NCBI GenBank assembly: GCA_029055875.1
Contig: JAIDCJ010000023.1
Coordinates: 10,355 to 64,253 of the forward strand
DNA length: 53,899 nucleotides
Direction: 5' to 3'
Source of the DNA: Clostridia bacterium
Lineage (GTDB): Bacteria > Bacillota > Clostridia > Christensenellales > Borkfalkiaceae
The position numbers were made by a program, and so were the translations under genes. Positions within the stretch are counted from its first letter, which is position 1; each line of letters begins with the position of its first letter. Positions 1 to 11,704 of this stretch are shown piece by piece. Below the pieces are notes generated by a model, which saw only the letters and a program-made list of their open reading frames with translations, was not told the DNA's origin and did not search any database.

Positions 1-329
1 AGGATAAAAATTTCTATTCGTTTTTAATCTACTACGCCGAGCAAATAATCCGTTGATACGTTAAAATATTTTGCAAGAACAACGATTACGGAAGCAAGAG
101 GTATTCTTTGACCATTTTCCCAAAAGCCTATCGCGCTTCTGCTCAATCCCGTTTCTTGGGCAAGTTGGTCTTGTGTAAGTCCTTTTTCTATTCGCAGTTC
201 TTTTAATCTCTCATAGAACTTTTCCATATCTTTATTTTACCACAACATGCGGAGGATAAAAATTTCTATTCGTTTTTAATCTACTACGCCAAGCAAATAA
301 TCCGTTGATACGTTAAAATATTTTGCAAG
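1..329. repeat. Tandem duplication of an XRE gene, period 252 bp
   Basis: Bases 1-77 and 253-329 are the same except for one mismatch (position 39 against 291, G/A). They cover the 3' part of two neighbouring XRE genes plus the bases after the stop codon. Similarity falls off toward the 5' part of the genes, where the proteins also differ. This looks like a tandem duplication followed by divergence of the DNA-recognition half, or by gene conversion that kept the 3' half uniform. Confidence 0.85.
24..227 (-). CDS. Small XRE-family helix-turn-helix regulator (copy 1)
   Basis: This 67-residue protein is almost only a Cro/CI-type helix-turn-helix domain: ERLKELRIEKGLTQDQLA, then LSRSAIGFWENG as the recognition region, ending in YFNVSTDYLLGV. 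It should bind DNA as a dimer and act as a repressor in the cytoplasm. It is a tandem paralogue of the next gene and resembles the regulator at 11501. The stretch before its start codon (TTGTGGTAAAATAAAGAT, ending at 228) is the same as the one before the 11501 gene, so it carries its own promoter and probably a degenerate operator near 240-252. It has no divergent partner of its own. The fold is certain; the target sites are inferred. Confidence 0.9.
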   Translation of the reverse strand: MEKFYERLKELRIEKGLTQDQLAQETGLSRSAIGFWENGQRIPLASVIVVLAKYFNVSTDYLLGVVD

Positions 330-479
330 CGCGATAATTGCAAGCGCATTCGGGATTCTTTTTCCCGTTTCCCAAAATCCGATTGCTCCCGCACTAATTC
401 CCGTTGCTTTCGCTAATTCCATCTGCGAAAATCCTTTCTCTGTTCGCAGTTCCTTTAATCTTTCCATGAACTTATCCAT
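276..479 (-). CDS. Small XRE-family helix-turn-helix regulator (copy 2)
   Basis: A 67-residue Cro/CI-type DNA-binding protein, paralogous to the genes at 24 and 11501. The recognition region reads ISAGAIGFWETG and the C-terminus (YFNVSTDYLLGVVD) matches copy 1. It is transcribed divergently from the small protein gene at 573, and the 93 bp between the two start codons holds three palindromic elements. The same arrangement recurs at 11138-11704, so it likely represses itself and the partner. There is no inducer or dimerisation domain beyond the helix-turn-helix fold, so how repression would be relieved is not visible. Confidence 0.9.
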   Translation of the reverse strand: MDKFMERLKELRTEKGFSQMELAKATGISAGAIGFWETGKRIPNALAIIALAKYFNVSTDYLLGVVD

Positions 480-488
480 AAAATTATT

Positions 489-557
489 CTACAACAAATG
501 TAGTTAAAATACTTGACCACTCACGAACGTTAGTGTATGATAAAACTACAAATGTTG
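489..557. promoter_or_regulatory. Divergent promoter-operator region of XRE module 1
   Basis: The plus-strand promoter is TTGACC (513-518), a 17-bp spacer and TATGAT (536-541). Three dyads lie in the region: CAACAAATGTAG (492-503) in front of the XRE gene, CACGAACGTTAGTG (522-535) inside the promoter spacer, and CTACAAATGTTG (546-557) just after the -10. The last is identical, in the same place relative to the promoter, to the site of module 2 (11424-11435 on the other strand). This supports operators for the neighbouring XRE protein. No binding data exist here. Confidence 0.7.
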
Positions 558-572
558 TTGAAGGAGAATTTT

Positions 573-839
573 ATGGAATATTCTGCAATCGAGAAAATAC
601 TTTTCGGAAAACGCGGGCACATAGACTTTGTGAAGTCGAGCAAAGAAAGCGAAGTCTTTTGTGACGAAAAAAATAAGCTTTTCTCGCAAATAGAAGAAAA
701 GCTAAAAAACGATAAGGAACTTTTGAAAGCGTATGAGGACGCTTTGGAAAATTATATTATGCAGGAAACAACCGATTTTTTCAAAGAGGGTTTCCGCTTC
801 GGTGCGCTTTTGGGTATGGATATTATTTACGAAGCGTAA
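573..839 (+). CDS. Small protein of XRE module 1 (DUF6809-like)
   Basis: An 88-residue protein of unknown function, rich in Glu and Lys and predicted mainly helical. The start at 573 is chosen because AAGGAG (561-566) sits at the right distance; an upstream ATG at 537 lies inside the promoter -10. It shares SAIE, ILFG, a DF motif, a charged helical middle and a final FKEGFRFG...M motif with the protein at 11138. From memory the pattern resembles the DUF6809 family; this is not verified. It is divergent from an XRE repressor and its 3' end overlaps the aminotransferase gene by 17 bp, tail to tail. Confidence 0.75.
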   Translation: MEYSAIEKILFGKRGHIDFVKSSKESEVFCDEKNKLFSQIEEKLKNDKELLKAYEDALENYIMQETTDFFKEGFRFGALLGMDIIYEA

Positions 840-2013
840 AATATTCCTTTGCAAGTTTTTCAAATGCGGGAAGTGCGCGGCGAATCATGTTACTATCCAC
901 ACAATAGGAAATGCGAACGTAGCCCTCTACCCCGAAGCTGTCGGACGGAACTAAAAGCAATTCGTATTTCTTCGCGCGTTCGCAGAATGCTTTCGCGTCA
1001 GGTTCGGGCGATTTCATAAACAGGTAGAACGCGCCCTCGGGGAGAATACACGCATACCCCATGTCGGTGAGTGCGCCGTATAACAGCTTGCGGTTGGAAT
1101 CGTAAACGGAAATATCGCTCGATTTGCCGAGGCACTTCGCGCACACTTTTTGGAAGAGCGCGGGCGCACAAACGTAACCGAGGCTTCTGCCCGCGCCGCA
1201 CACAGCGGCAAACAAATCCTCCGCACCTACGCAGGCGGGGTGAATTGCAATATACCCGATGCGCTCGCCCGCAAGGCTCAGCGATTTGGAGAACGAATAG
1301 CAAACGATCGTATTCTCGTAATAGTTCATTACGTAAGGCACCTGAGTGCCGTAAACAAGCTCGCGATAGGGCTCGTCCGAAATCAAGAAAATCGGCGCGC
1401 CCTTTTCTTTGCTCTTTTCTTCAAGCAATGCGGCAAGCCCCTTGATTTCTTCCGCCGAGTACACCGCGCCCGTGGGGTTGTTGGGGGAATTGAGAATGAC
1501 CGCCTTGGTATTTTTGCCGATTGACTTTTTGAGCGTGCTTAAATCCAAATGGAAGTTTTTATCCGACTTCGCCGTAACGACTTTTCCGCCCGCGCGTTCA
1601 ATGAAAACCCTGTATTCGGGGAAGCAGGGCGTGATGACGACGAACTCGTCGTCTTTTTCAAAGAGCGCGTTCAGCGTAATGGTGAGCGAAGCCGCCGCCC
1701 CGCACGTCATGTAAATAAGCTCCGCAGGCACGGCTACGCCGAAGCTCGATTGAATATAATTTGCAACCGCCGCCCGAACGCCCGGATCGCCCGCCGCCGA
1801 GGTATAGCCGTGGAGATTAGCCGAGGGCGTTTCCTTTACGAGCCGTTCGATTTCCTCCCGCACGCAGTCGGGCGCGGGCACGCTTGGATTGCCGAGCGAA
1901 AAGTCGAACACGTTCTCCGCGCCGATTTGCTTTTTCCGCGCGTTGCCGTACTCGAATATTTCACGAATGACCGAACGCTCTTCCCCGAGCTTTTGCATTA
2001 CTTTGTTGAACAT
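823..2013 (-). CDS. PLP-dependent class I/II aminotransferase
   Basis: A fold-type I aminotransferase of 396 residues, close in length to aspartate-type enzymes. Visible hallmarks are the early FDFSLGNPS substrate loop, the SPNNPTGAVYS motif, the DEPYRELVY strand and the PLP lysine in YSFSKSLSLAGERIGY, followed by the RISYC arginine near the C-terminus that usually holds the substrate carboxylate. It transfers amino groups between an amino acid and a 2-oxo acid in the cytoplasm; the exact substrate cannot be read from sequence. The start at 2013 is preceded by AAAGGAG; an upstream in-frame ATG (2046) lacks such a site. It lies downstream of uvrA with a short gap and may be transcribed with it. 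Confidence 0.88.
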   Translation of the reverse strand: MFNKVMQKLGEERSVIREIFEYGNARKKQIGAENVFDFSLGNPSVPAPDCVREEIERLVKETPSANLHGYTSAAGDPGVRAAVANYIQSSFGVAVPAELIYMTCGAAASLTITLNALFEKDDEFVVITPCFPEYRVFIERAGGKVVTAKSDKNFHLDLSTLKKSIGKNTKAVILNSPNNPTGAVYSAEEIKGLAALLEEKSKEKGAPIFLISDEPYRELVYGTQVPYVMNYYENTIVCYSFSKSLSLAGERIGYIAIHPACVGAEDLFAAVCGAGRSLGYVCAPALFQKVCAKCLGKSSDISVYDSNRKLLYGALTDMGYACILPEGAFYLFMKSPEPDAKAFCERAKKYELLLVPSDSFGVEGYVRISYCVDSNMIRRALPAFEKLAKEYFTLRK

Positions 2014-2063
2014 GGTTTTCTCCTTTTGTGTTTGGACTTTGTTCATAAGATTCTTCGCTCCGC

Positions 2064-4892
2064 TCAGAATGACGACGAGGAGAGTATTTTCTTTAAGAAT
2101 TGCCCCGTGTAGCTCTTCTCCACCTTTGCAACCTCTTCGGGCGAACCCGTGCAGAGGATTTCCCCGCCGCCGTCGCCGCCCTCGGGCCCGAGGTCGATAA
2201 TGTGATCGGCTACCTTGATAACGTCCAAGTTGTGCTCGATAACCAGCACGGTATTGCCGCTGTCGCGCAGGCGTTGCAGAATGGAAACGAGCTTTTGCAC
2301 GTCGTAGCTGTGCAGGCCCGTGGTGGGCTCGTCGAGGATATAAAAGGTCTTGCCCGTGGAACGCTTTGAAAGCTCGGTTGCGAGCTTCACGCGCTGCGCC
2401 TCGCCGCCCGAAAGGGTGGTGGAGCTCTGCCCTAATTTGATATACCCTAAGCCCACTTCGTTGAGCGTGGAAATTTTATTGTAGATAGAGGGAATAGGCT
2501 TGAAGAATTCGCACGCGTCCTCTACCGTCATTTCGAGTACGTCCGAAATGCTCTTGCCCTTGTACTTGACTTCGAGCGTTTCGCGGTTGTAGCGTTTGCC
2601 GCCGCACACCTCGCAGGGCACGTACACGTCGGGCAGGAAGTGCATTTCAATTTTCATGATGCCGTCGCCCTGACAGTTCTCGCACCGTCCGCCCGCTACG
2701 TTAAAGGAAAATCTGCCCGATTTGTAACCCATAGTCTTGGCGTCGGGAGTGGCGGCGAATAGATCGCGGATCGCCGAGAACACGCCCGTATAGGTGGCGG
2801 GGTTGGAGCGCGGCGTTCTGCCGATGGGCGACTGGTCGATTGCAATGACTTTATCGAAATGCTCTACCCCCGAATGCTTTCCGCTTTTGCCGAGGGGCAG
2901 GCGCGCCCCACCGAGCTCGTTACTCAAAATGGGCAGAATTATTTCGTTGACGAGCGAGGACTTGCCCGAACCGCTCACGCCCGTGACCGCCGTAATGAGC
3001 CCCGCGGGTACTTCCGCCGTAATGCCCTTTAAGTTGTTCTGGCGGCAGTCCTCTACGCGGAGGAACCGTCCGTCCGCTTTCTTGCGAACGGCGGGAATTT
3101 CTATTTTTCTGCGCCCTGCAAGGAAGTCGCCCGTAATGGAGCGCGGCTCCTGCATGATTTCTTCCGCCGTGCCGCACGCGACGATTTCGCCGCCGTGCAC
3201 GCCCGCACCGGGGCCTACGTCTATAATGCAGTCCGCCGCCCGCATGGTGTCCTCGTCGTGCTCTACCACGATAAGCGTGTTGCCGATATCCCGAAGCCCT
3301 TTGAGCGACGCGAGCAGTTTTTCGTTATCGCGCTGATGAAGCCCGATACTCGGCTCGTCGAGAATGTATAAAACGCCCGTGAGCGCACTCCCGATTTGGG
3401 TAGCAAGCCGAATGCGCTGGCTCTCCCCGCCCGAAAGCGTAGCCGCGCTCCGCGCAAGGGTTAGATAGTCAAGCCCGACGCCGACTAAAAAGTCGATACG
3501 GCTTTTGATTTCCTTTAAGATGACGTCCGCGATTGCGTGCTGGGTAGCCGTGAGCTCCAACCCACCCAAAAATTCGCGCAGGCTCTTCACGGGCATTTCG
3601 CAGACTTCGGCAATGTTCTTGCCCCCCACCGTGACCGCGAGCGCCTCTTTTTTCAGACGCTTGCCGTGGCAGGTAGGACAGTCGGTGGTGCGCATATAGC
3701 GTTCGATATCCCACTTCACGCCCACCGAAGTGGTTTGGTTATACCGCCTTTGCAGATTGTTGACAAACCCCTCCCACGCGCTTTGATAGGTAGAGCGGAA
3801 GGTCTTTGTCTGGTACTCCATTTCTATTTTCTCGCCGTCCGTGCCGTACATGAGAAGGTCGTAAACCTCCTTGGGTAAATCCTTCACGGGCGTATCGAGC
3901 GAGAACCCGAAGCGGCGGGAAAGCGCGCCGAGATACATTTGCGTAACGGACGAGGAATCGAGATTCCAGCCGCTGATACGGATTGCGCCCTCGCGCAGGG
4001 TTTTCGTTTTATCGGGGCAAATCAAATCGGGATCGACAAGCTGACGGAAGCCTAACCCCGTACACTCGGGGCACGCGCCCCAAGGGGTGTTGAACGAGAA
4101 AAGGCGCGGCTCGATTTCCTCAATGGAGATATTGCAGTCGGGGCAGGAATAGCGCGAAGAGTACAGAATTTCCTCGCCGCCGCAGTCGATAACCACGAGC
4201 CCGTCGGCAAGCTTCAACGCCGTTTCGAGGCTCTCCGTGAGCCGTTTCAAAATACCCTCTTTCACCACAAGACGGTCGATCACCACGCTTACGTTGTGCT
4301 TGATATTTTTATCGAGCTTGATTTCTTCCTGCAAGTCGTAGACGCTTCCGTCTATCTTCACGCGGGCGTAGCCGCTCTTGCGGTAGCCCTGTAATTCCTT
4401 TTGAAACTCGCCCTTTCTGCCGCGCACCACGGGCGCGTTCACTAAAATCTTGCTCCCCTCGGGCAGCGTCATCACGCGGTCTGCGATTTCGTCCACCGTC
4501 TGGCGGCGGATCTCCCTGCCGCACTTGGGACAATGCGGCGTGCCCGCCCTTGCAAACAGCAAACGCAGGTAGTCGTAAATCTCCGTCACCGTGCCCACCG
4601 TAGAGCGGGGGTTGTGCGAAGTCGTTTTCTGGTCAATGGAAATGGCGGGAGAAAGCCCCTCGATACTCTCGACGTCGGGCTTTTCCATCATGCCGAGGAA
4701 CTGCCGCGCGTAGGAAGAAAGGCTCTCCATGTATCTTCTTTGCCCCTCGGCAAAGATGGTATCGAACGCGAGCGTACTCTTGCCCGAACCCGAAAGCCCC
4801 GTAAGCACCGTGAGCTTGTTGCGCGGAATGTGTACGTCCACGTTTTTTAAGTTGTTTTCTTTTGCGCCTTTTACGTAAATTTCTTCTTTCAT
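2064..4892 (-). CDS. uvrA: Excinuclease ABC subunit A
   Basis: The damage-sensing ATPase of nucleotide excision repair; it dimerises, loads UvrB on lesions and leaves. At 942 residues it is full length. It has two ABC ATPase modules: the first Walker A (GLSGSGKST) near residue 31 with signature LSGGESQRIRLA and Walker B LDEPSIGLH, and the second Walker A (GVSGSGKSS) with signature LSGGEAQRVKLA and LDEPTTGLH. Zinc-binding CxxC pairs are present (CPKCG, CPDC, CPEC, CENC, CEVCGG). It is the third gene of an operon starting at the uvrB promoter, 12 bp after the nucleotidase gene. Confidence 0.98.
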   Translation of the reverse strand: MKEEIYVKGAKENNLKNVDVHIPRNKLTVLTGLSGSGKSTLAFDTIFAEGQRRYMESLSSYARQFLGMMEKPDVESIEGLSPAISIDQKTTSHNPRSTVGTVTEIYDYLRLLFARAGTPHCPKCGREIRRQTVDEIADRVMTLPEGSKILVNAPVVRGRKGEFQKELQGYRKSGYARVKIDGSVYDLQEEIKLDKNIKHNVSVVIDRLVVKEGILKRLTESLETALKLADGLVVIDCGGEEILYSSRYSCPDCNISIEEIEPRLFSFNTPWGACPECTGLGFRQLVDPDLICPDKTKTLREGAIRISGWNLDSSSVTQMYLGALSRRFGFSLDTPVKDLPKEVYDLLMYGTDGEKIEMEYQTKTFRSTYQSAWEGFVNNLQRRYNQTTSVGVKWDIERYMRTTDCPTCHGKRLKKEALAVTVGGKNIAEVCEMPVKSLREFLGGLELTATQHAIADVILKEIKSRIDFLVGVGLDYLTLARSAATLSGGESQRIRLATQIGSALTGVLYILDEPSIGLHQRDNEKLLASLKGLRDIGNTLIVVEHDEDTMRAADCIIDVGPGAGVHGGEIVACGTAEEIMQEPRSITGDFLAGRRKIEIPAVRKKADGRFLRVEDCRQNNLKGITAEVPAGLITAVTGVSGSGKSSLVNEIILPILSNELGGARLPLGKSGKHSGVEHFDKVIAIDQSPIGRTPRSNPATYTGVFSAIRDLFAATPDAKTMGYKSGRFSFNVAGGRCENCQGDGIMKIEMHFLPDVYVPCEVCGGKRYNRETLEVKYKGKSISDVLEMTVEDACEFFKPIPSIYNKISTLNEVGLGYIKLGQSSTTLSGGEAQRVKLATELSKRSTGKTFYILDEPTTGLHSYDVQKLVSILQRLRDSGNTVLVIEHNLDVIKVADHIIDLGPEGGDGGGEILCTGSPEEVAKVEKSYTGQFLKKILSSSSF

Positions 4893-4904
4893 AATATGTA
4901 AATT

Positions 4905-5483
4905 TTATCCCTGCCGAGCGATACGCTGAACCGCCTCGTCTATTTGCTGCCAGTTCTCGCCGTAGTAGCGGAACTCGCCGACCCTATCTAAATTGTGCCG
5001 CCCGACGGCGAGCACGCCCGTAATACCGTAGCTTTCCGCTTCTTTCAGAATATCGGGGGTGTCGTCCACGAGCACGGATATGCCGTGCGCCTTGCAGTAC
5101 GCGCCCTTATCCCAATGCTCCGCTACGATTTCGTCGTAGGGGATTTTGCGTTTTTCCAACCAGTCGCGGCTGAGCATAGCGGGGTTGCCGAACCAGTCCT
5201 TTTGGCGGGCGGTGAGAATAATTACCTCGTGTCCCGCTTTCCGCCAGCCCGCAAGCGCCTCTCTTGCGCCCTTCCGCGCTTTTGCCTCGGTGAATGCGGA
5301 CACGCCCCCGTCCAGCATAAATTCGGTTACGTCGGCAAACGTCCAGTCGTAAACGTTTACGAACATATTTGAATTTTCGTCTTTGAGCTTAAAGGGCAGA
5401 TTTTTGCGTGCGATATAGAGCCCCGCGCGCTTGGCGCGTTCCACGATATTCAAGGTATCGTCAATGTCTACCGCGATTCTCAT
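4905..5483 (-). CDS. HAD-superfamily 5'-nucleotidase-like protein
   Basis: A 192-residue haloacid-dehalogenase-fold phosphatase. Motif I is DIDDT at the very N-terminus (nucleophile plus acid Asp), motif II is ILTARQ, and the acidic motif IV is VLVDDTPD. A helical cap seems to be inserted after motif I. Relatives are annotated as 5'(3')-deoxyribonucleotidases of the cytosolic type C family or as YqfW-like nucleotidases, which remove phosphate from nucleoside monophosphates. Its start overlaps the uvrB stop as ATGA, so translation is probably coupled, and uvrA follows at 12 bp. The position inside the uvrB-uvrA operon suggests handling of nucleotides during repair; that is inference. Confidence 0.8.
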
Positions 5484-7447
5484 GCGTTCCCCCTCAGCCG
5501 TTTTCTCAGCTCCGTAATGTTTTCCCGAATTTCGATTGCACGCTCGAAGTCGAGCTGTGCGGACGCCACCTTCATGAGCGCCTTTAATTTTTCGATTTCT
5601 TCGGGGATATCTTTGATGCGGACGTCTTCCGTCCGTTTCGCCTTCGCCGTAATGTTGAGCGAGGTTTTCACTTCCTTTACAATCGTCCGCGGCACGATGC
5701 CGTGCTCTTCGTTATACTTCTGCTGAATGGCGCGGCGGCGGTTGGTTTCGCCGATTGCGCGCGACATGCTCCCCGTCATTTCGTCGGCGTACATAATAAC
5801 GCGCCCCTCCGCATTTCGTGCGGCTCTGCCAATCGTCTGCACGAGCGAGGTTTCGCTTCGTAAAAACCCTTCCTTGTCCGCGTCGAGAATGGCAACCAGC
5901 TTGACCTCGGGCATATCGAGCCCCTCGCGCAACAAATTGATTCCGCACAGCACGTCGAACTCGCCCGATCTAAGGCCGTTCACGATATCGATACGCTCCA
6001 AGGTATCGATATCCGAGTGCATATAGCGCACCTTCACGCCGCTTTCCTTTAAGTAGTCGGTGAGGCTCTCCGCCATGCGCTTGGTGAGCGTAGTGACGAG
6101 CACGCGCCCGCCCGAGCTCACCGTCTTTTTGATTTCGCCGAGCAAATCGTCTATCTGTCCGCGCGTGGGGCGGATTTCCACGGGCGGGTCCAAAAGCCCC
6201 GTGGGACGAATGAGCTGTTCCACCACCTGCCCCGCCTGCTCCAATTCATACGGTGCGGGCGTTGCCGAAACGCAGATGAGCTGCGGCACGCGGGCGTCGA
6301 ACTCCTCGAAGGTCAAGGGGCGGTTATCGTAAGCCGACTTCAAGCGGAAGCCGTAATCTACGAGGTTGGTCTTTCTCGCCAAGTCGCCGTTGTACATGGC
6401 GCGTATCTGCGGAATGGTCATGTGGCTCTCGTCAATAAACACGATAAAATTTTTCGGGAAATAGTCGAGTAGCGTAAACGAGGGCTGACCGGGTGCGCGT
6501 CCGTCGAAATAGCGGGAATAGTTCTCCACGCCCGAGCAGTAGCCGATTTCGCGGAGCATCTCCAAATCGTGCTCGGTGCGCTGACGGAGCCGCTGCGCTT
6601 CCAACAGTTTGCCCTCGTCCTCGAAGGCTTTCACTTCGCCCTGCATGTCCTCTTCGATCATGGAAAGCGCGGAATGCAGACGCTCGCTGCCCACGGCGTA
6701 GTGGCTTGCGGGGAAGATAACGGCGTGCTTCAAGGAAGAGATGATTTTACCCGTAACGACGTCCTCTTCGCCGAGCGTTTCGATTTCGTCGCCGAAGAAT
6801 TCCACGCGGATTGCAACCTCTGAATTGGACGCGGGGAAGATTTCCACCACGTCGCCGCGGACGCGGAAGGTGGAACGCTTGAAGTCCGTATCGTTGCGCG
6901 AATACTGAATTTCCACGAGGCGGGATAAAAGCTCGTCCCGCGAAATTTCCTGCCCCGGGCGGAGCGAAATGCCGAGGCGGAAAAACTCCTCGGGTGCGCC
7001 AAGTCCGTAAATGCAGGACACGGAAGAAACCACTATCACGTCGTCCCGCTCGCCGAGCGAACAGGTTGCCGCGTTGCGCAGTTTATCGATTTCGTCGTTC
7101 ATGGAGAGGTCTTTCTCGATATAAGTATCGGTTGAGGGAATATAGCTCTCGGGTTGGTAATAGTCGTAATAGGAAACGAAGTACTCCACGCGGTTGTTGG
7201 GGAAGAACTCGCGGAACTCGTTGCAGAGCTGCGCCGCAAGCGTCTTGTTGTGCGCGATAACGAGCGCGGGACGCCCCACGTTTTTAATGACGTTCGCCAT
7301 GGTAAACGTCTTGCCGCTGCCCGTAACGCCCACCAAAACCTGCGTGCGGATACCGTCCTCTACCCCCTCGGTGAGGCGGCGGATTGCCTCGGGCTGGTCG
7401 CCCGTCGGCGCAAACGGTGATTTTAATTCAAAGTCAAAGTGTTCCAT
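5480..7447 (-). CDS. uvrB: Excinuclease ABC subunit B
   Basis: The helicase-like core of nucleotide excision repair (655 residues): UvrA hands it to damaged DNA and UvrC then cuts both sides. Visible elements: Walker [11 protein letters not shown], the beta-hairpin [10 protein letters not shown] that threads between DNA strands, the DEAH-like IDESH box, motif [11 protein letters not shown], and a C-terminal UVR coiled-coil domain that contacts UvrC. The start at 7447 begins the conserved [18 protein letters not shown] sequence; a much longer in-frame extension to 7663 would cross the promoter and is not used. It is the first gene of an operon with the nucleotidase and uvrA. Confidence 0.98.
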
Positions 7448-7483
7448 AAATATTTCCGTAGTGATATGCAAAAATAGACACAA

Positions 7484-7528
7484 ACAAACGTTTGTATCTA
7501 TTGTAGCGCGTTCGCGCGGATTTGTCAA
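7484..7528 (-). promoter_or_regulatory. uvrB promoter with downstream palindromic operator
   Basis: Reading the minus strand, TTGACA (7523-7528), a 17-bp spacer and TACAAT (7500-7505) form a near-consensus sigma-A promoter. A perfect 12-bp palindrome ACAAACGTTTGT (7484-7495) begins 4 bp after the -10, where bound repressor would block initiation. Since uvrBA are classic SOS genes, this is a candidate LexA-type operator, though it departs from the common Firmicute GAAC-N4-GTTC box. Confidence 0.75.
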
Positions 7529-7541
7529 TGAAATATGCGCT

Positions 7542-7913
7542 CTATTTGAAGATGAAGCGCAGAATGACGCCGATGAAAAAGGTGATACACGCGCCGATTG
7601 CGGCAACGCCCCATTTGAATGCGACGGTGCGTTTGCGCTGTATATCCGACCGCTTATAGGCAAGCCCCGCTTCGTGCATTAAAACGACGTAAATCTTTTC
7701 GCCCTTGCGCTCGGACTCGATAAGCTGAAAGTAACCGTCGAGCTCTAACGAGCGCAGCGTTCTATCGAGCATTTCCTCGTCGAACCCCGCCTTGGGCGGG
7801 AGCGCGGCAAGAATTTCGCACGGAGCAACCAAGAACCGCTGTTTGCCGAGGGAAAGAGAAAACACCGCCTGCATGACCTCGTTTTCCCGTTTGTTGAGTT
7901 TCTCGTTTATCAC
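7542..7913 (-). CDS. Small winged-helix-like protein with C-terminal membrane anchor (paralogue 2)
   Basis: A 123-residue protein of unknown function. The first ~85 residues look like a winged helix ([12 protein letters not shown], then a [10 protein letters not shown] wing-like strand pair), followed by a basic patch ([10 protein letters not shown]) and one hydrophobic segment near residues 100-120 ([20 protein letters not shown]). This predicts a membrane-anchored protein with its N-terminal domain in the cytoplasm. It follows the gene at 7919 by 5 bp, and both share the same design, which suggests a tandem duplication and possibly a heterodimer. No name recognised. Confidence 0.75.
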
Positions 7914-7918
7914 CTTCG

Positions 7919-8287
7919 TTACCTCAAGGGTAACAGCAATGCAATGAGTGCACCGAAGAACCCGCCCGCGAAGCCGCCCGCAAGAGCCAGCAAAAACGCC
8001 TCGATTCTGCGGATAAGCCGCTCGCGCTTTTCGCTCTTCGTGCGCTCGAAGTAGAGCCTGCCCTCGGGCATGGGGCGCACGCAGTACTCCCCTTCGCCCG
8101 CGTAACCGACCTCGATATACTTGTGGGCTTCGAGATAGTCGAGCATAGCTTTTAAGCCCGCCGAGTCTATTCTAAACGCCTTAGGAAAGCACGCGAGAAG
8201 ATCGCTCTCCTCAATGATTTTATAGCTCCCGTTCCCGCAGCATTCGTTCACCGCGGAAAGCAGAAGACTCGTTCGTTCGTCCAGCAT
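7919..8287 (-). CDS. Small winged-helix-like protein with C-terminal membrane anchor (paralogue 1)
   Basis: A 122-residue protein of the same design as its neighbour at 7542: a predicted winged-helix domain (LDYLEAHKYIEVGYAG resembles the wing), a basic RERLIRRIEAF stretch, and a Gly/Ala/Leu-rich hydrophobic C-terminus (LLALAGGFAGGFFGALIALLL) that may span the membrane once. Function unknown. Located between a polytopic membrane protein gene and its paralogue, all on the minus strand with short gaps, so an operon is likely. A role in sensing or scaffolding at the membrane is only a guess. Confidence 0.75.
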   Translation of the reverse strand: MLDERTSLLLSAVNECCGNGSYKIIEESDLLACFPKAFRIDSAGLKAMLDYLEAHKYIEVGYAGEGEYCVRPMPEGRLYFERTKSEKRERLIRRIEAFLLALAGGFAGGFFGALIALLLPLR

Positions 8288-8325
8288 ACCGTTACCGAAA
8301 ACAGTATGCGCGAATTACAAATTTA

Positions 8326-9381
8326 TCATGCGCCGAAGAAAAGCAGGAAGGGGTTGCCGTAGAAGAACAGTCCGCCGAGCGGCGAGGACGAAAGGAACGC
8401 CATAAACCCTGCAATTCCCTGCGTAATGCCCTCCGGAAGTCCCTGCTGTGCGGCGGCAAGCTCCAAGAGCTTGACAACGCCAAGGTTCAGCCCGCACGTG
8501 AACGCAATAAAGAACGCGGTGAACACGACGGAAAGAATGACGCCGTCGACCGCAGAAAGCGTAGGCGAAATGCTGCGGTACTTGCGAATGAGCTTGTTGA
8601 AGAAGAACCCGCCCGTCATAATGAGCGCAAACAGCACGAGGAAGATAATTGCCACAACGATGAGATAGGAAACCATAGTTGCGATAACGATATTCATCGT
8701 TCCCTTTGCCATGCTGCCCGCCATTGCGGCCGTCCAGCTCTTGAGGAAGGGAACGGCAAGCGCGAGATACACGGCAAGCACGAGCGCGCCGAGCGTGAGC
8801 GAAATCATAAGCACCGTTTGAAGCGAGCGCACGAGCCCGATACGGTAGCCCCCGCGCATGAAGAGAATGCACAGGAAAATGAGTACGAGGTCTTGAATAT
8901 ACTTTGCGCCGAACTGCGTCCAGACGGGGTTTGCATAGACGGGCTGTAACGCCTCCACGGGCACGGCGTAATACATGACGCCGAGCGCGAACCCGCCGAG
9001 AATGACGATAAGCAGCGCAATGTTGAGAAGCGACGTCACCGCGCCTAAAATGCGGTTCATCACGCGGAAGAACTTATTCGAGCGCGTGGGTTTCTTTAAG
9101 ATATGACGGCGGATAAAATGCCCCGATACGAGCACGAGCGCCGTTACGCCCACGAGGTACCCCGCGCCGACCGCGAAGGCCTGCCAAGCCTCGGGCAGAG
9201 GAGGAATGAATTTCAGAAGAAGGGTAAGCGCGAAGATAACGAGAATCTGCCAGCTTGTCCAGCTCATGCGGACGAAGTTACGGAAGATACCGTAAACCAC
9301 GGACGCTACCGCACACGCGCCGATCACGCCGATGCCGATCCACACGGGCGTAGAGATACTCGAAAGTAAATTGATAATCAT
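8326..9381 (-). CDS. Polytopic membrane protein, CvpA-like
   Basis: A 351-residue integral membrane protein with about eight to nine hydrophobic segments. The pattern of two similar halves (VWIGIGVIGACAVASVVYGIFRNF with a following Arg, and a later FMRGGYRIGLVRSLQTVL segment) recalls the CvpA family duplicated in tandem; CvpA proteins often begin with a hydrophobic helix followed by GxxRG. No catalytic motifs are visible. It heads the likely operon 9381-7542 with the two small membrane-anchored proteins. Membrane location is firm; family assignment is tentative. Confidence 0.7.
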   Translation of the reverse strand: MIINLLSSISTPVWIGIGVIGACAVASVVYGIFRNFVRMSWTSWQILVIFALTLLLKFIPPLPEAWQAFAVGAGYLVGVTALVLVSGHFIRRHILKKPTRSNKFFRVMNRILGAVTSLLNIALLIVILGGFALGVMYYAVPVEALQPVYANPVWTQFGAKYIQDLVLIFLCILFMRGGYRIGLVRSLQTVLMISLTLGALVLAVYLALAVPFLKSWTAAMAGSMAKGTMNIVIATMVSYLIVVAIIFLVLFALIMTGGFFFNKLIRKYRSISPTLSAVDGVILSVVFTAFFIAFTCGLNLGVVKLLELAAAQQGLPEGITQGIAGFMAFLSSSPLGGLFFYGNPFLLFFGA

Positions 9382-9424
9382 ACGTTTTCCCTCCTTTTCA
9401 GATTTTCAAAAATATCCCTGCTCT

Positions 9425-11050
9425 TTATTTATTAAAGTTATCCTTCAAAGATACGATCTCGGATAAGCAAAGTTTGTCGTTTTTTGTACAAGTTTTGTAG
9501 TATCCCGTACGCATGAGCTGGAATGCGGTGTTCTCCGTCGCCTCTTTGAGGTACGGCTCCGCTTTCGCCTGGAAGATATGCTCGCTATCGAGATTGATGC
9601 GTTCGGAGAAATCCTGCCCCGCATAGTCCGCGTCGCGAAGCAAATGGTCGTACTGCACGAGCTCCGCGTCCACGCAGGTTTCCGCATTCACCCAATGCAA
9701 AACGCCCTTCGCCTTAATGCCGCTCGTGTCGTTTCCGCTGCGCGATTCGGGAATATAGGTGCACTTGATTTCGGTCACCTTTCCGTCTTTATCGGTCACC
9801 GCCTCGTCGCAACGGACGATATACGCGTTTTTCAGCCGTGCGTATCCGCCGATTTTCAAACGGTGGTATTTGGGCGGCGGATCTAACGAGAAGTCGCCTT
9901 GCTCGATATAGAGCGTTTTGCCGAACTTCACTTTGCGCGTGCCCGCGCCCTCTTCTAACTGATTGATTTCAAAGTCGATTTCTTCGCTCCCCTCGTAGTT
10001 GGTGATGGTGAGCTTCAACGGCTCGGCAACCGCCATGGCGCGGGGTGCGTGTGCGTTGAGGTACTCGCGCACGACTGCCTCGAAGTAGGAAATTTCGCAT
10101 TCGGAATTTGCTTTTACAACGCCGATACGCGAGCAGAAGTCGCGCACCGCCGCCGCGGGAATGCCGCGGTTGCGTAAGCCCGCAAGCGTGGGCATACGCG
10201 GATCGTCCCAGCCGTGAACGGAGTTTTCTTCCACGAGCTTTTTGAGATACCGCTTACTCATAACCAAATTGGTTAAATTCAGCCGCGCAAACTCGATTTG
10301 GCGGGGCTTCGGCGCAAAGCCGAGCGAATACCCTACCCAGTCGTAAAGCGGGCGGTGGTCCTCAAATTCGAGCGTACAGAGCGAATGCGTTACGCCCTGC
10401 AAATAGTCGCAGATGGGGTGCGCGTAGTCGTACATGGGGTACACGCACCACTTATCGCCCGTGCGGTGATGGGTGGCGCGCAGAATGCGGTAGATAACCG
10501 GATCGCGCAGATTGATATTGGGCGACGCCATGTCTATTTTCGCACGCAGACACTTTTCGCCGTCCGCATACTTGCCTGCACGCATTTCGCGGAAGAGCTT
10601 CAAATTCTCTTCGGGAGTACGGTTTCTATAAGGGCTTTCCTTGCCGGGTTCGGTGAGCGTACCGCGCGTTTCTTTGATTTCTTCCGCCGATAAATCGCAG
10701 ACGAACGCCTTGCCCTCCTGAATGAGTTTTTCAGCGTACTCATAGATTATATCGAAAAAGTCGGAAGCGTATACCTCTTTTTCCCATTTATATCCGAGCC
10801 AAGAAATATCGCGGCGGATTGCGTCTACAAATTCCGTCTTTTCCTTGGACGGATTCGTATCGTCGAAGAACAGGTTGCAGGTGCCGCCGTATTTATTCGC
10901 CGTGCCGAAATTGACGAACATACTCTTTGCGTGTCCGATATGCAAATAGCCGTTCGGCTCGGGCGGGAAACGCGTTTTTACCGCGGAAATTCTTTGCTCC
11001 GCTAAATCGCTCTCCACAATTTGTTCAATGAAATTTGCAGGCTCTGCCAT
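9425..11050 (-). CDS. glnS: Glutaminyl-tRNA synthetase
   Basis: A class I synthetase of 541 residues that charges tRNA-Gln with glutamine. The HIGH motif is in PEPNGYLHIGHAKS, and the second signature is VMSKRYL. The sequence TRFPPEPNG and the NxRDPVIYR region are typical of GlnRS rather than GluRS, as is the two-barrel anticodon-binding C-terminus. The start at 11050 follows a good GGAGG site; a longer in-frame start at 11131 has none. An extended -10 TGCTATAAT (-10 at 11081-11086) lies 31 bp upstream. Many Clostridia instead form Gln-tRNA through GatCAB, so a dedicated GlnRS is a useful lineage marker. Confidence 0.96.
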   Translation of the reverse strand: MAEPANFIEQIVESDLAEQRISAVKTRFPPEPNGYLHIGHAKSMFVNFGTANKYGGTCNLFFDDTNPSKEKTEFVDAIRRDISWLGYKWEKEVYASDFFDIIYEYAEKLIQEGKAFVCDLSAEEIKETRGTLTEPGKESPYRNRTPEENLKLFREMRAGKYADGEKCLRAKIDMASPNINLRDPVIYRILRATHHRTGDKWCVYPMYDYAHPICDYLQGVTHSLCTLEFEDHRPLYDWVGYSLGFAPKPRQIEFARLNLTNLVMSKRYLKKLVEENSVHGWDDPRMPTLAGLRNRGIPAAAVRDFCSRIGVVKANSECEISYFEAVVREYLNAHAPRAMAVAEPLKLTITNYEGSEEIDFEINQLEEGAGTRKVKFGKTLYIEQGDFSLDPPPKYHRLKIGGYARLKNAYIVRCDEAVTDKDGKVTEIKCTYIPESRSGNDTSGIKAKGVLHWVNAETCVDAELVQYDHLLRDADYAGQDFSERINLDSEHIFQAKAEPYLKEATENTAFQLMRTGYYKTCTKNDKLCLSEIVSLKDNFNK

Positions 11051-11137
11051 GAGATTTTCCTCCGTAGTTGCTTTGGCAGTATTATAGCACTTTTCTACAA
11101 AAATTGATACTGTTTCTTTGCGATTTCGCAAAATTTG

Positions 11138-11410
11138 TTAGTCGGCTGTGAATAGCTCCATAGAAATAAAAAAGCCGTTGCGAAACCCCGCTTTGTAATA
11201 ATCGCGTACCTCTATGCAGGTTTGCTCGTCAATTTCCTGTTGCAGTCTTTTTAGAACTTCCTTTTTTTCGGGCGATTCTTCCAACAGCTTTTCCAACTTT
11301 TTTTCCCACTCCATAACGATATCCGACTGCGCCGAAAGCTCCTCCGAACGCGGAATAAAATCTGATTTCCCCCATGTTCCGTATAAAATTCCTTCGATTG
11401 CCGATTTCAT
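11138..11410 (-). CDS. Small protein of XRE module 2 (DUF6809-like)
   Basis: A 90-residue charged, helical protein and a divergent paralogue of the protein at 573. Both share SAIE, IL(F/Y)G, DF and a C-terminal GFRxG...M pattern. The ribosome binding site AAAGGAG lies just before the start at 11410. It is divergent from the XRE gene at 11501, the mirror image of module 1. Its promoter is TTGACT-N17-TATGAT, almost the same as that of the 573 gene. From memory it resembles DUF6809; no activity is known. Confidence 0.78.
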   Translation of the reverse strand: MKSAIEGILYGTWGKSDFIPRSEELSAQSDIVMEWEKKLEKLLEESPEKKEVLKRLQQEIDEQTCIEVRDYYKAGFRNGFFISMELFTAD

Positions 11411-11423
11411 AAACTTCTCCTTT

Positions 11424-11488
11424 CAACATTTGTAGAAATATCATACTTCAACAAACGTTGAAAGTCAAGCGAATTTCAACAATTGTGG
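11424..11488. promoter_or_regulatory. Divergent promoter-operator region of XRE module 2
   Basis: On the minus strand TTGACT-N17-TATGAT drives the small protein gene. Three dyads occur: CAACATTTGTAG (11424-11435) after the -10, CAACAAACGTTG (11449-11460) in the spacer, and CAACAATTGTGG (11477-11488) in front of the XRE gene. Number, order and position relative to the promoter match module 1 (489-557), which argues for conserved repressor sites. Confidence 0.7.
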
Positions 11489-11500
11489 TAAAATAAAGAT

Positions 11501-11704
11501 ATGGAAAAATTTATTGAACGGTTAAAAGAATTGCGTCTTGAAAAAGGACTTACGTTAGTACAACTTGCAAAAGAAACGGGCATCAGTCACGGCGCAATCG
11601 GTTTTTGGGAAAGCGGAAAAAGAGTTCCCAACGCGCTTGCAATTATTACGCTTGCAAAATATTTCAACGTTACTTCCGACTATCTTCTTGGTTTATCGGA
11701 CTGA
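11501..11704 (+). CDS. Small XRE-family helix-turn-helix regulator (copy 3)
   Basis: A 67-residue Cro/CI-type DNA-binding protein, closely related to those at 24 and 276: ERLKELRLEKGLTLVQLA, then ISHGAIGFWESG, ending YFNVTSDYLLGLSD. It is divergent from the small protein gene at 11138, with three dyads in the 90 bp between them. The glyS promoter starts 5 bp after its stop codon, so read-through could link it with glyS. Probably autorepressing; the signal that relieves it is unknown. Confidence 0.9.
   Translation: MEKFIERLKELRLEKGLTLVQLAKETGISHGAIGFWESGKRVPNALAIITLAKYFNVTSDYLLGLSD

Follow-up and report, generated by a model that had tools for sequence, protein, structure and literature searches.

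Predicted autoregulated XRE/DUF6809 modules with module-specific operators in a Clostridia genome and its relatives

The DNA considered in this study is a stretch of 53,899 nucleotides (nt) from a Clostridia bacterium (assembly GCA_029055875.1, contig JAIDCJ010000023.1, positions 10,355 to 64,253 of the forward strand), referred to as a whole as the window. It contains, in opposite orientation, two divergent gene pairs (modules), each joining a small regulator of the XRE type, with a helix-turn-helix (HTH) domain, to a small protein of Pfam family DUF6809. The reading that I favour, with a rough probability of 0.62, is that each module is a local circuit in which an autoregulated XRE repressor keeps its DUF6809 neighbour down, that repressor specificity changes together with the operators, and that DUF6809 is most likely the payload. 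Behind this reading stands an observation made across many modules of related genomes: the dyads near the promoters are alike in sequence inside one module, vary from one module to the next, and co-vary with the recognition helix of the XRE.

In the proposed circuit, the small XRE (mostly 63–80 amino acids (aa), often made from leaderless mRNA) would bind its private palindrome at two or three intergenic places. A site in the -35/-10 spacer of the DUF6809 promoter would block DUF6809, and a site abutting the -10 of the XRE gene would bring about autorepression. Some modules, including both of those in the window, would have a third site just 3′ of the DUF6809 -10. DUF6809 itself would be the kept-down product, a small helical protein with a function of its own, separate from the switch. 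That the XRE binds the predicted sites and that binding represses I infer from position and co-variation. With joint changes of repressor and operator specificity, cross-regulation is not a necessary outcome where a genome carries several modules. It may occur between the window modules, which have one operator in common.

Positions and sequences of the predicted operators

To describe operator geometry, modules were anchored at the -10 of the DUF6809 promoter, and the pairing of dyad arms within a module was compared with that of arms taken from different modules (a best-centre trans-pairing control), a dyad requiring at least 5 of 6 pairs. The main set of 49 modules was reduced to 40 by dropping three that are near-identical to others (L048, L050, L063) and six with intergenic regions below 60 bases (L060, L066, L085, L087, L095, L100). 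A further set of 32 paired modules gave 25 after removal of six redundant and one short; it retains four dubious promoter picks (L158, L173, L208, L211) and is nearly independent of the first set, L126 having been looked at earlier.

Dyads in the middle of the promoter spacer (centre -10 to -7) occur in 26 of the 40 modules against 2.5 expected (z 10.3), and dyads on the XRE side (centre -40 to -37, about 29 bp from the spacer dyad) in 18 against 3.3 expected (z 6.4). The peak 3′ of the -10 (centre +14 to +17) is weak, with 9/38 against 3.0 expected (z 2.3), and intervals clear of these three peaks gave z values from -1.4 to 2.8. The further modules repeat the two strong peaks: 17/25 against 2.2 expected for the spacer dyad (z 8.2) and 7/20 against 1.7 for the XRE-side dyad (z 3.5). 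An alternative test with fixed centres peaked near -38 and near -9, and elsewhere too, with z as high as 3.8 and as low as -4.0; it proved too blunt because the dyads differ in parity, and it was replaced.

The sites of one module also resemble each other. At least nine matching positions between spacer and XRE-side sites are found in 25/40 modules, as compared to 2.7 expected between modules (z 12.7), and the likeness extends to the region 3′ of the -10 (10/38 against 1.8 expected, z 6.1), with a control region at z -1.3. Geometry and within-module likeness together indicate that the three window sites are real but that two sites are the rule among relatives. The sequence-only reading of this DNA had proposed three operators per copy. 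That is right for both window modules; across relatives, the spacer and XRE-side sites are general, and the site 3′ of the -10 belongs to a subset. The dyad layout as such is kept, with spacer and XRE-side peaks in the 40 and again in the 25 modules.

The relation between operator and repressor was assessed in modules with a dyad of at least 5 of 6 pairs, which were 50 of 61 single-HTH modules (32 of 36 in a smaller comparison). Likeness of operator half-sites follows likeness of recognition helices (Mantel r 0.35, 0/5000), also when the rest of the XRE is removed (partial r 0.18, 0/5000). Individual cases illustrate this. The helix xN[CR]YASWE goes with TACCC...GGGTA in L056, L059 and L083, whose XREs are 41–44% alike elsewhere, and P[VI]STYANWE goes with TAGTC in L204, L210 and L212, of which L210 and L212 are 43% alike elsewhere and L204 is closer. 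SQRSISSWE is found with AGCTC (L047), SQRSISGWE with AGCGC (L126). As a separate observation, L161 and L165, from different genera, have in common the helix SQNAIAQWE and the spacer dyad ATCTCAAATGAGAT.

Four modules (L096, L101, L102, L103) encode a repressor of 149 aa whose single chain contains two HTH domains. Scored as direct and as inverted repeats over 13 positions, their sites give 12, 10, 9 and 9 against 8, 6, 6 and 7 (means 10.0 and 6.8), while 57 single-HTH modules have no orientation preference (means 9.4 direct, 9.3 inverted). By an odd-width palindrome measure, spacers with at least 5 of 6 pairs number 21/57 among single-HTH modules and 0/4 among double-HTH modules. Direct-repeat sites fit what would be expected of a single-chain pseudo-dimer, in a small sample of four; L136, with two, and L138, with one, add at least three double-HTH genes that lie outside it.

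The start of the repressor mRNA could be examined in the 44 of 46 modules with enough upstream sequence. DUF6809 genes have a Shine-Dalgarno sequence in 38 of the 44, and 34 XRE starts have none. In 26 of these 34, a hexamer matching TATAAT at four or more of six positions lies exactly 6 nt 5′ of the ATG, against 5.1 expected. In about ten modules the regulator is of another HTH type and has a normal leader. Absence of a Shine-Dalgarno sequence together with a -10 hexamer 6 nt from the ATG predicts leaderless XRE transcripts, and 26 of the 44 XRE genes look as if they would start in this way in vivo, both window modules fitting the pattern.

The DUF6809 protein and its partner gene

Both small proteins of the window belong to DUF6809 (PF20648, cut-off 27 bits), with 28.0 bits for module 1 and 32.3 bits for module 2; in the genome search the former scored 26.5 bits, just below the cut-off. 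The GFRxG-type end that the two had been noted to share is in fact a feature of the family, GF.xG. An AlphaFold2 model of the 88-aa module 1 protein is a helical hairpin (helices 5–10, 24–43 and 48–87; mean predicted local distance difference test (pLDDT) 89, predicted template modelling score (pTM) 0.68). Searches with this fold gave none in PDB at E<=10 and three BFVD viral models with E above 6, and the sequence has no significant relative in PDB (best E 0.14). No convincing family was found in PADLOC, NCBIfam or PHROG: the window protein matched none in PADLOC or NCBIfam, and 71 relatives matched weakly (best E 0.0011 and 5.7e-4). The small open reading frames (ORFs) are maintained, as shown by ratios of nonsynonymous to synonymous substitution (dN/dS) of about 0.05–0.06, that is, purifying selection, in three close pairs (L047, L048, L050).

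In the order, a 30-row alignment finds relatives of DUF6809 in 52 of 396 genomes and 28 of 142 genera (E<=1e-4). The counts are 50 of 301 genomes for the family and 13 of 391 for the class (both E<=1e-8), the class matches under 1e-15 being all in the window's own family. Named carriers are Clostridia assemblies, among them one Candidatus Coproplasma. The Pfam model finds DUF6809 in 5 of 61 relatives, which implies a patchy spread. When genome contigs were searched, a 4-row alignment found no relatives and a 16-row alignment seven loci.

The pairing with a repressor is close for strong matches. Across the 396 genomes of the order, 36 of 37 matches at E<=1e-15 have a divergent HTH gene beside them (33 by script; L061, L062 and L072 by reading, the DUF6809 gene of L072 being cut by a contig end). 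The exception is L064, a solitary gene in genome G424 with no XRE alongside; its upstream dyad GGTAATACC resembles the operator of L065 in another genome. Weaker matches are without a detected XRE in 14 of 20 cases. A further set of 46 DUF6809 ORFs contains 33 that are paired, nine unpaired and four at contig ends. The script paired 32, and for five of the other 14 (L164, L165, L177, L178, L198) a contig end is no more than 330 bases away; one of these is L165, counted as paired, where the start of an XRE gene is visible at the contig end. The nine solitary genes (L157, L160, L162, L197, L199, L200, L205, L207, L209) have at least 826 bases upstream with no XRE found; since a single profile was used to look for the XRE, genes of other HTH types may have escaped detection.

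Module 2 lies between the genes for glutaminyl- and glycyl-tRNA synthetase (GlnRS, GlyRS), a site examined at 30 loci (the window's genome and 29 relatives), 22 of which have both genes, not as divergent neighbours in L115. The module is present at two of these loci (the window's genome and L126 of G430), and six short gaps of 185–290 bases are without it; G216 also carries a module at this site (L084). Between G000 and G216 the flanking proteins are about 90.5% alike, the XREs 72% and the DUF6809 proteins 37%, and the operators differ, so either DUF6809 changes much faster there than its neighbours or it has been replaced in place. Genome G373 has the reverse pattern, with DUF6809 proteins 93% (L065–L089) and 96% (L089–L090) alike, XREs 78% and 59% alike, and operators that differ. 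Other inserts are frequent in the GlnRS-GlyRS gap of relatives; in L114, L118, L120, L121, L125, L129 and L131 there is an ORF of 281–306 aa, membrane-like by eye.

The two window modules and their genome

The features of the two modules are collected in Table 1. Direct reading of the sequence bore out the module design, promoters, dyads and coordinates given by the sequence-only reading, including the 12-mer CTACAAATGTTG that stands 3′ of the -10 in identical form in both modules.

Table 1. Genes, promoter elements and predicted operators of the two window modules. Positions are those of the window; a dot marks features without a strand.
Feature	Position	Strand	Basis
Third XRE gene, 67 aa	24..227	-	ORF; Pfam HTH_3 6.9e-19; recognition helix SRSAIGFWE; tandem to 276-479
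Module 1 XRE repressor gene, 67 aa	276..479	-	ORF; HTH_3 1.8e-16
Module 1 likely XRE -10 TAGAAT, 6 nt 5′ of ATG, predicted leaderless	486..491	-	Sequence; spacing across modules
Module 1 predicted operator CAACAAATGTAG, XRE side	492..503	.	Dyad; XRE-side position class
Module 1 DUF6809 promoter -35 TTGACC	513..518	+	Sequence; N17 to -10
Module 1 predicted operator CACGAACGTTAGTG, promoter spacer	522..535	.	Dyad; spacer position class
Module 1 DUF6809 promoter -10 TATGAT	536..541	+	Sequence
Module 1 predicted operator CTACAAATGTTG, 3′ of -10	546..557	.	Dyad
Module 1 DUF6809 gene, 88 aa, ATG 573	573..839	+	PF20648 28.0 bits; Shine-Dalgarno AAGGAG 561-566
Module 2 DUF6809 gene, 90 aa	11138..11410	-	PF20648 32.3 bits; Shine-Dalgarno 11422-11417
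Module 2 predicted operator CTACAAATGTTG (gene sense), 3′ of -10	11424..11435	.	Identical to module 1 site
Module 2 DUF6809 promoter -10 TATGAT	11440..11445	-	Sequence
Module 2 predicted operator CAACAAACGTTG (+ strand), promoter spacer	11449..11460	.	Dyad
Module 2 DUF6809 promoter -35 TTGACT	11463..11468	-	Sequence; N17 to -10
Module 2 predicted operator CAACAATTGTGG (+ strand), XRE side	11477..11488	.	Dyad
Module 2 likely XRE -10 TAAAAT, 6 nt 5′ of ATG 11501, predicted leaderless	11489..11494	+	Sequence
Module 2 XRE repressor gene, 67 aa	11501..11704	+	ORF; HTH_3 6.5e-16

All three XREs of the window are of an HTH-only build and score 58.5–68.1 bits, above the Pfam HTH_3/XRE cut-off of 23 bits. 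The third stands in tandem with the XRE of module 1 and is 72% identical to it. The tandem genes have unlike 5′ halves and nearly identical 3′ ends, with one mismatch by eye over about 77 bases, and their proteins differ in the half with the recognition helix; a similar repeat is also present beyond the left edge of the window.

In the host genome (1.6 Mb, 25 contigs), exact CWACAWWTGTWG occurs at three places, all within the two window modules, as compared to one place for a reversed-pattern control. When up to two mismatches are allowed, the window shows no enrichment of the motif, with 17 matches against 15.5 expected. The genome has four strong DUF6809 genes, all four divergent from an HTH gene of 63–68 aa. 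Two of these lie outside the window: L003, which has the usual layout with a different dyad, TTAGAAAACTAA, present three times, and L004, whose own repeats, of the ATTATATAAT type, are displaced from the usual places. The window modules had been taken for a single duplicated pair; with these two further divergent pairs and their own dyads, that view gives way to one of a large set of modules spread over the order. No XRE stands beside a fifth and weaker DUF6809 gene (C2:273224, L039).

Other divergent arrangements in the same genome resemble the modules. By eye, a promoter with a dyad-like spacer faces a second XRE in L021, a membrane-like protein in L019 and lipoprotein-like proteins in L017 and L022, the last three loci having partner proteins with no Pfam match. 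Two further kinds of small protein, both with no Pfam match, are divergent from small XREs: Cys-containing proteins with 'NCKxF/CKHY' (L010, L018, L023) and proteins with '(S/N)G(Q/E)(R/K)F.L' (L013, L024, L025).

Competing explanations and known systems

Several results weigh against the repressor-payload reading. The third site is not general, since the further modules have it in 3/24 cases (2.1 expected, z 1.9), and in L004, L041 and L086 the expected places are without a good dyad. The rest of the XRE tracks the operator as strongly as does the helix (r 0.36, partial 0.20, both 0/5000), so shared ancestry is part of the co-variation signal, and many module pairs with six of nine identical helix residues have unlike operators. 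DUF6809 likeness is weakly related to that of the operator (r 0.15, 7/5000) and of the XRE (r 0.14, 56/5000), as an interaction between the proteins would also have it. With no fold match for DUF6809, the argument for a payload is one of weak exclusion, and a repressor that has no sensor domain leaves the inducing signal unexplained.

The strongest competitor is that DUF6809 is an anti-repressor that binds the neighbouring XRE and lifts repression, in a two-state switch like SinI/SinR or a phage repressor and anti-repressor. I consider this possible but unlikely. It would account for the regularity with which strong DUF6809 matches stand beside an HTH protein that has no sensor, for DUF6809 being the only conserved target seen, and for the weak correlation between the two proteins. 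Yet the closely similar DUF6809 copies of G373 (93% and 96% alike) face XREs that are less alike, DUF6809 proteins are 17–38% alike (50% for L097–L098) in the 67-aa-class pairs listed at XRE identity of at least 55%, and DUF6809 genes persist where there is no XRE; a variant in which DUF6809 binds a conserved part of the XRE may be considered. None of the tests shows the small protein to have the anti-repressor role once suggested for it, and weak co-variation and solitary genes lean against a purely anti-repressor role. A payload is somewhat favoured, because DUF6809 persists without the XRE and in sequence the two are largely uncoupled.

A bolder version of the payload idea, which I regard as rather improbable, holds that the modules are 'immunity-typed' cassettes: the repressor/operator type would be a tag that shifts by joint mutation, DUF6809 would act on cells or newcomers without the matching repressor, and the modules would constitute a natural repressor/operator library for an XRE recognition code.

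More doubtful still is a toxin-antitoxin-like or addiction module, with a harmful DUF6809 kept off by the XRE. The small two-gene cassette, its patchy spread with several copies in some genomes, and a truncated DUF6809 next to an intact XRE in L063 are in keeping with it. However, the HTH gene is divergent in both window modules and beside 36 of 37 strong matches, unlike the operon of a type II system, there is no convincing PADLOC or NCBIfam family, one relative used as query had no match in plasmid or phage records, and a solitary DUF6809 with no repressor should be harmful.

A remnant of the immunity region of a phage or conjugative element is very improbable: the XRE does resemble phage regulators (phrog_8) and the regulator of ICEBs1 (7t8i, 1.7e-7), but, with relatives and not the window proteins as queries, the DUF6809 relative P0018 was unmatched in 50,697 phage and 72,556 plasmid records and alignment A3 in IMG/VR viral contigs, and the flank families listed (25 commonest of 101) are mostly housekeeping. 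For 78 flanking proteins, the phage families listed (25 of 83) include a single integrase family, which has one member. The repressor-payload reading retains from the sequence-only reading a compact, self-contained XRE circuit free of phage genes, with operators at fixed promoter positions and a layout that recurs in relatives.

That reading had also found no described system of this form. It is true that DUF6809 (PF20648) is not named in the literature searched, but the family exists in Pfam, and pairs of an XRE with a small partner are known. Closest among them are the XRE-DUF397 pairs found in Streptomyces (WhiJ and a BldB paralogue). The cited accounts describe many paralogous pairs per genome, the partner being in most cases no longer than 100 aa and of unknown biochemistry, and report binding of WhiJ9 to repeats in the intergenic region of its own locus (PMC10294661, PMC10364602, PMC2701414). 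The window modules share with these the XRE regulator, the small partner and the many paralogues. They are not members: a Pfam scan of both small proteins (E up to 1) lists DUF6809 and no DUF397. In those accounts DUF397 lies downstream of the XRE, whereas the window genes are divergent with another small-protein family; the WhiJ9 sites are direct repeats that mediate iosA activation, unlike the window palindromes; the pairs are reported only from Actinobacteria; and a promoter-spacer dyad or a change of operator from copy to copy goes unmentioned.

Controller (C) proteins of restriction-modification systems are described as small proteins that regulate their own genes, whose promoters contain palindromic boxes and whose transcripts are leaderless (PMC4824078). 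They have the same HTH-only build, and C.AhdI is a sequence match of a window XRE (1e-5); boxes and leaderless start are predictions for the DUF6809 modules. The modules differ in that the operators serve DUF6809 and that no restriction-modification family is found among the flank families listed (25 commonest of 101), the window neighbours being other genes.

The operator region of lambda CI/Cro has divergent promoters, several operators and a leaderless repressor mRNA, all of which have a counterpart, in part predicted, in the window modules. Those modules differ in that phage genes and a second, Cro-like DNA-binding protein are absent and that the 67-aa XRE has no CI-type C-terminal domain. 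A further idea that may be considered is that the spacer site activates the XRE gene, as happens at lambda PRM. SinR/SinI likewise sets an XRE repressor next to a small helical protein; DUF6809 and the XRE differ from that pair in having no common Pfam domain.

The 65 analysed modules pair a compact repressor with likely operators, mostly at fixed and readable positions, and offer natural changes of specificity, with natural single-chain dimers on asymmetric sites among them. If the predicted binding is true, the evolution of repressor-operator specificity would become directly testable in these modules, and a Pfam family of unknown function would gain a handle at the level of its promoter.

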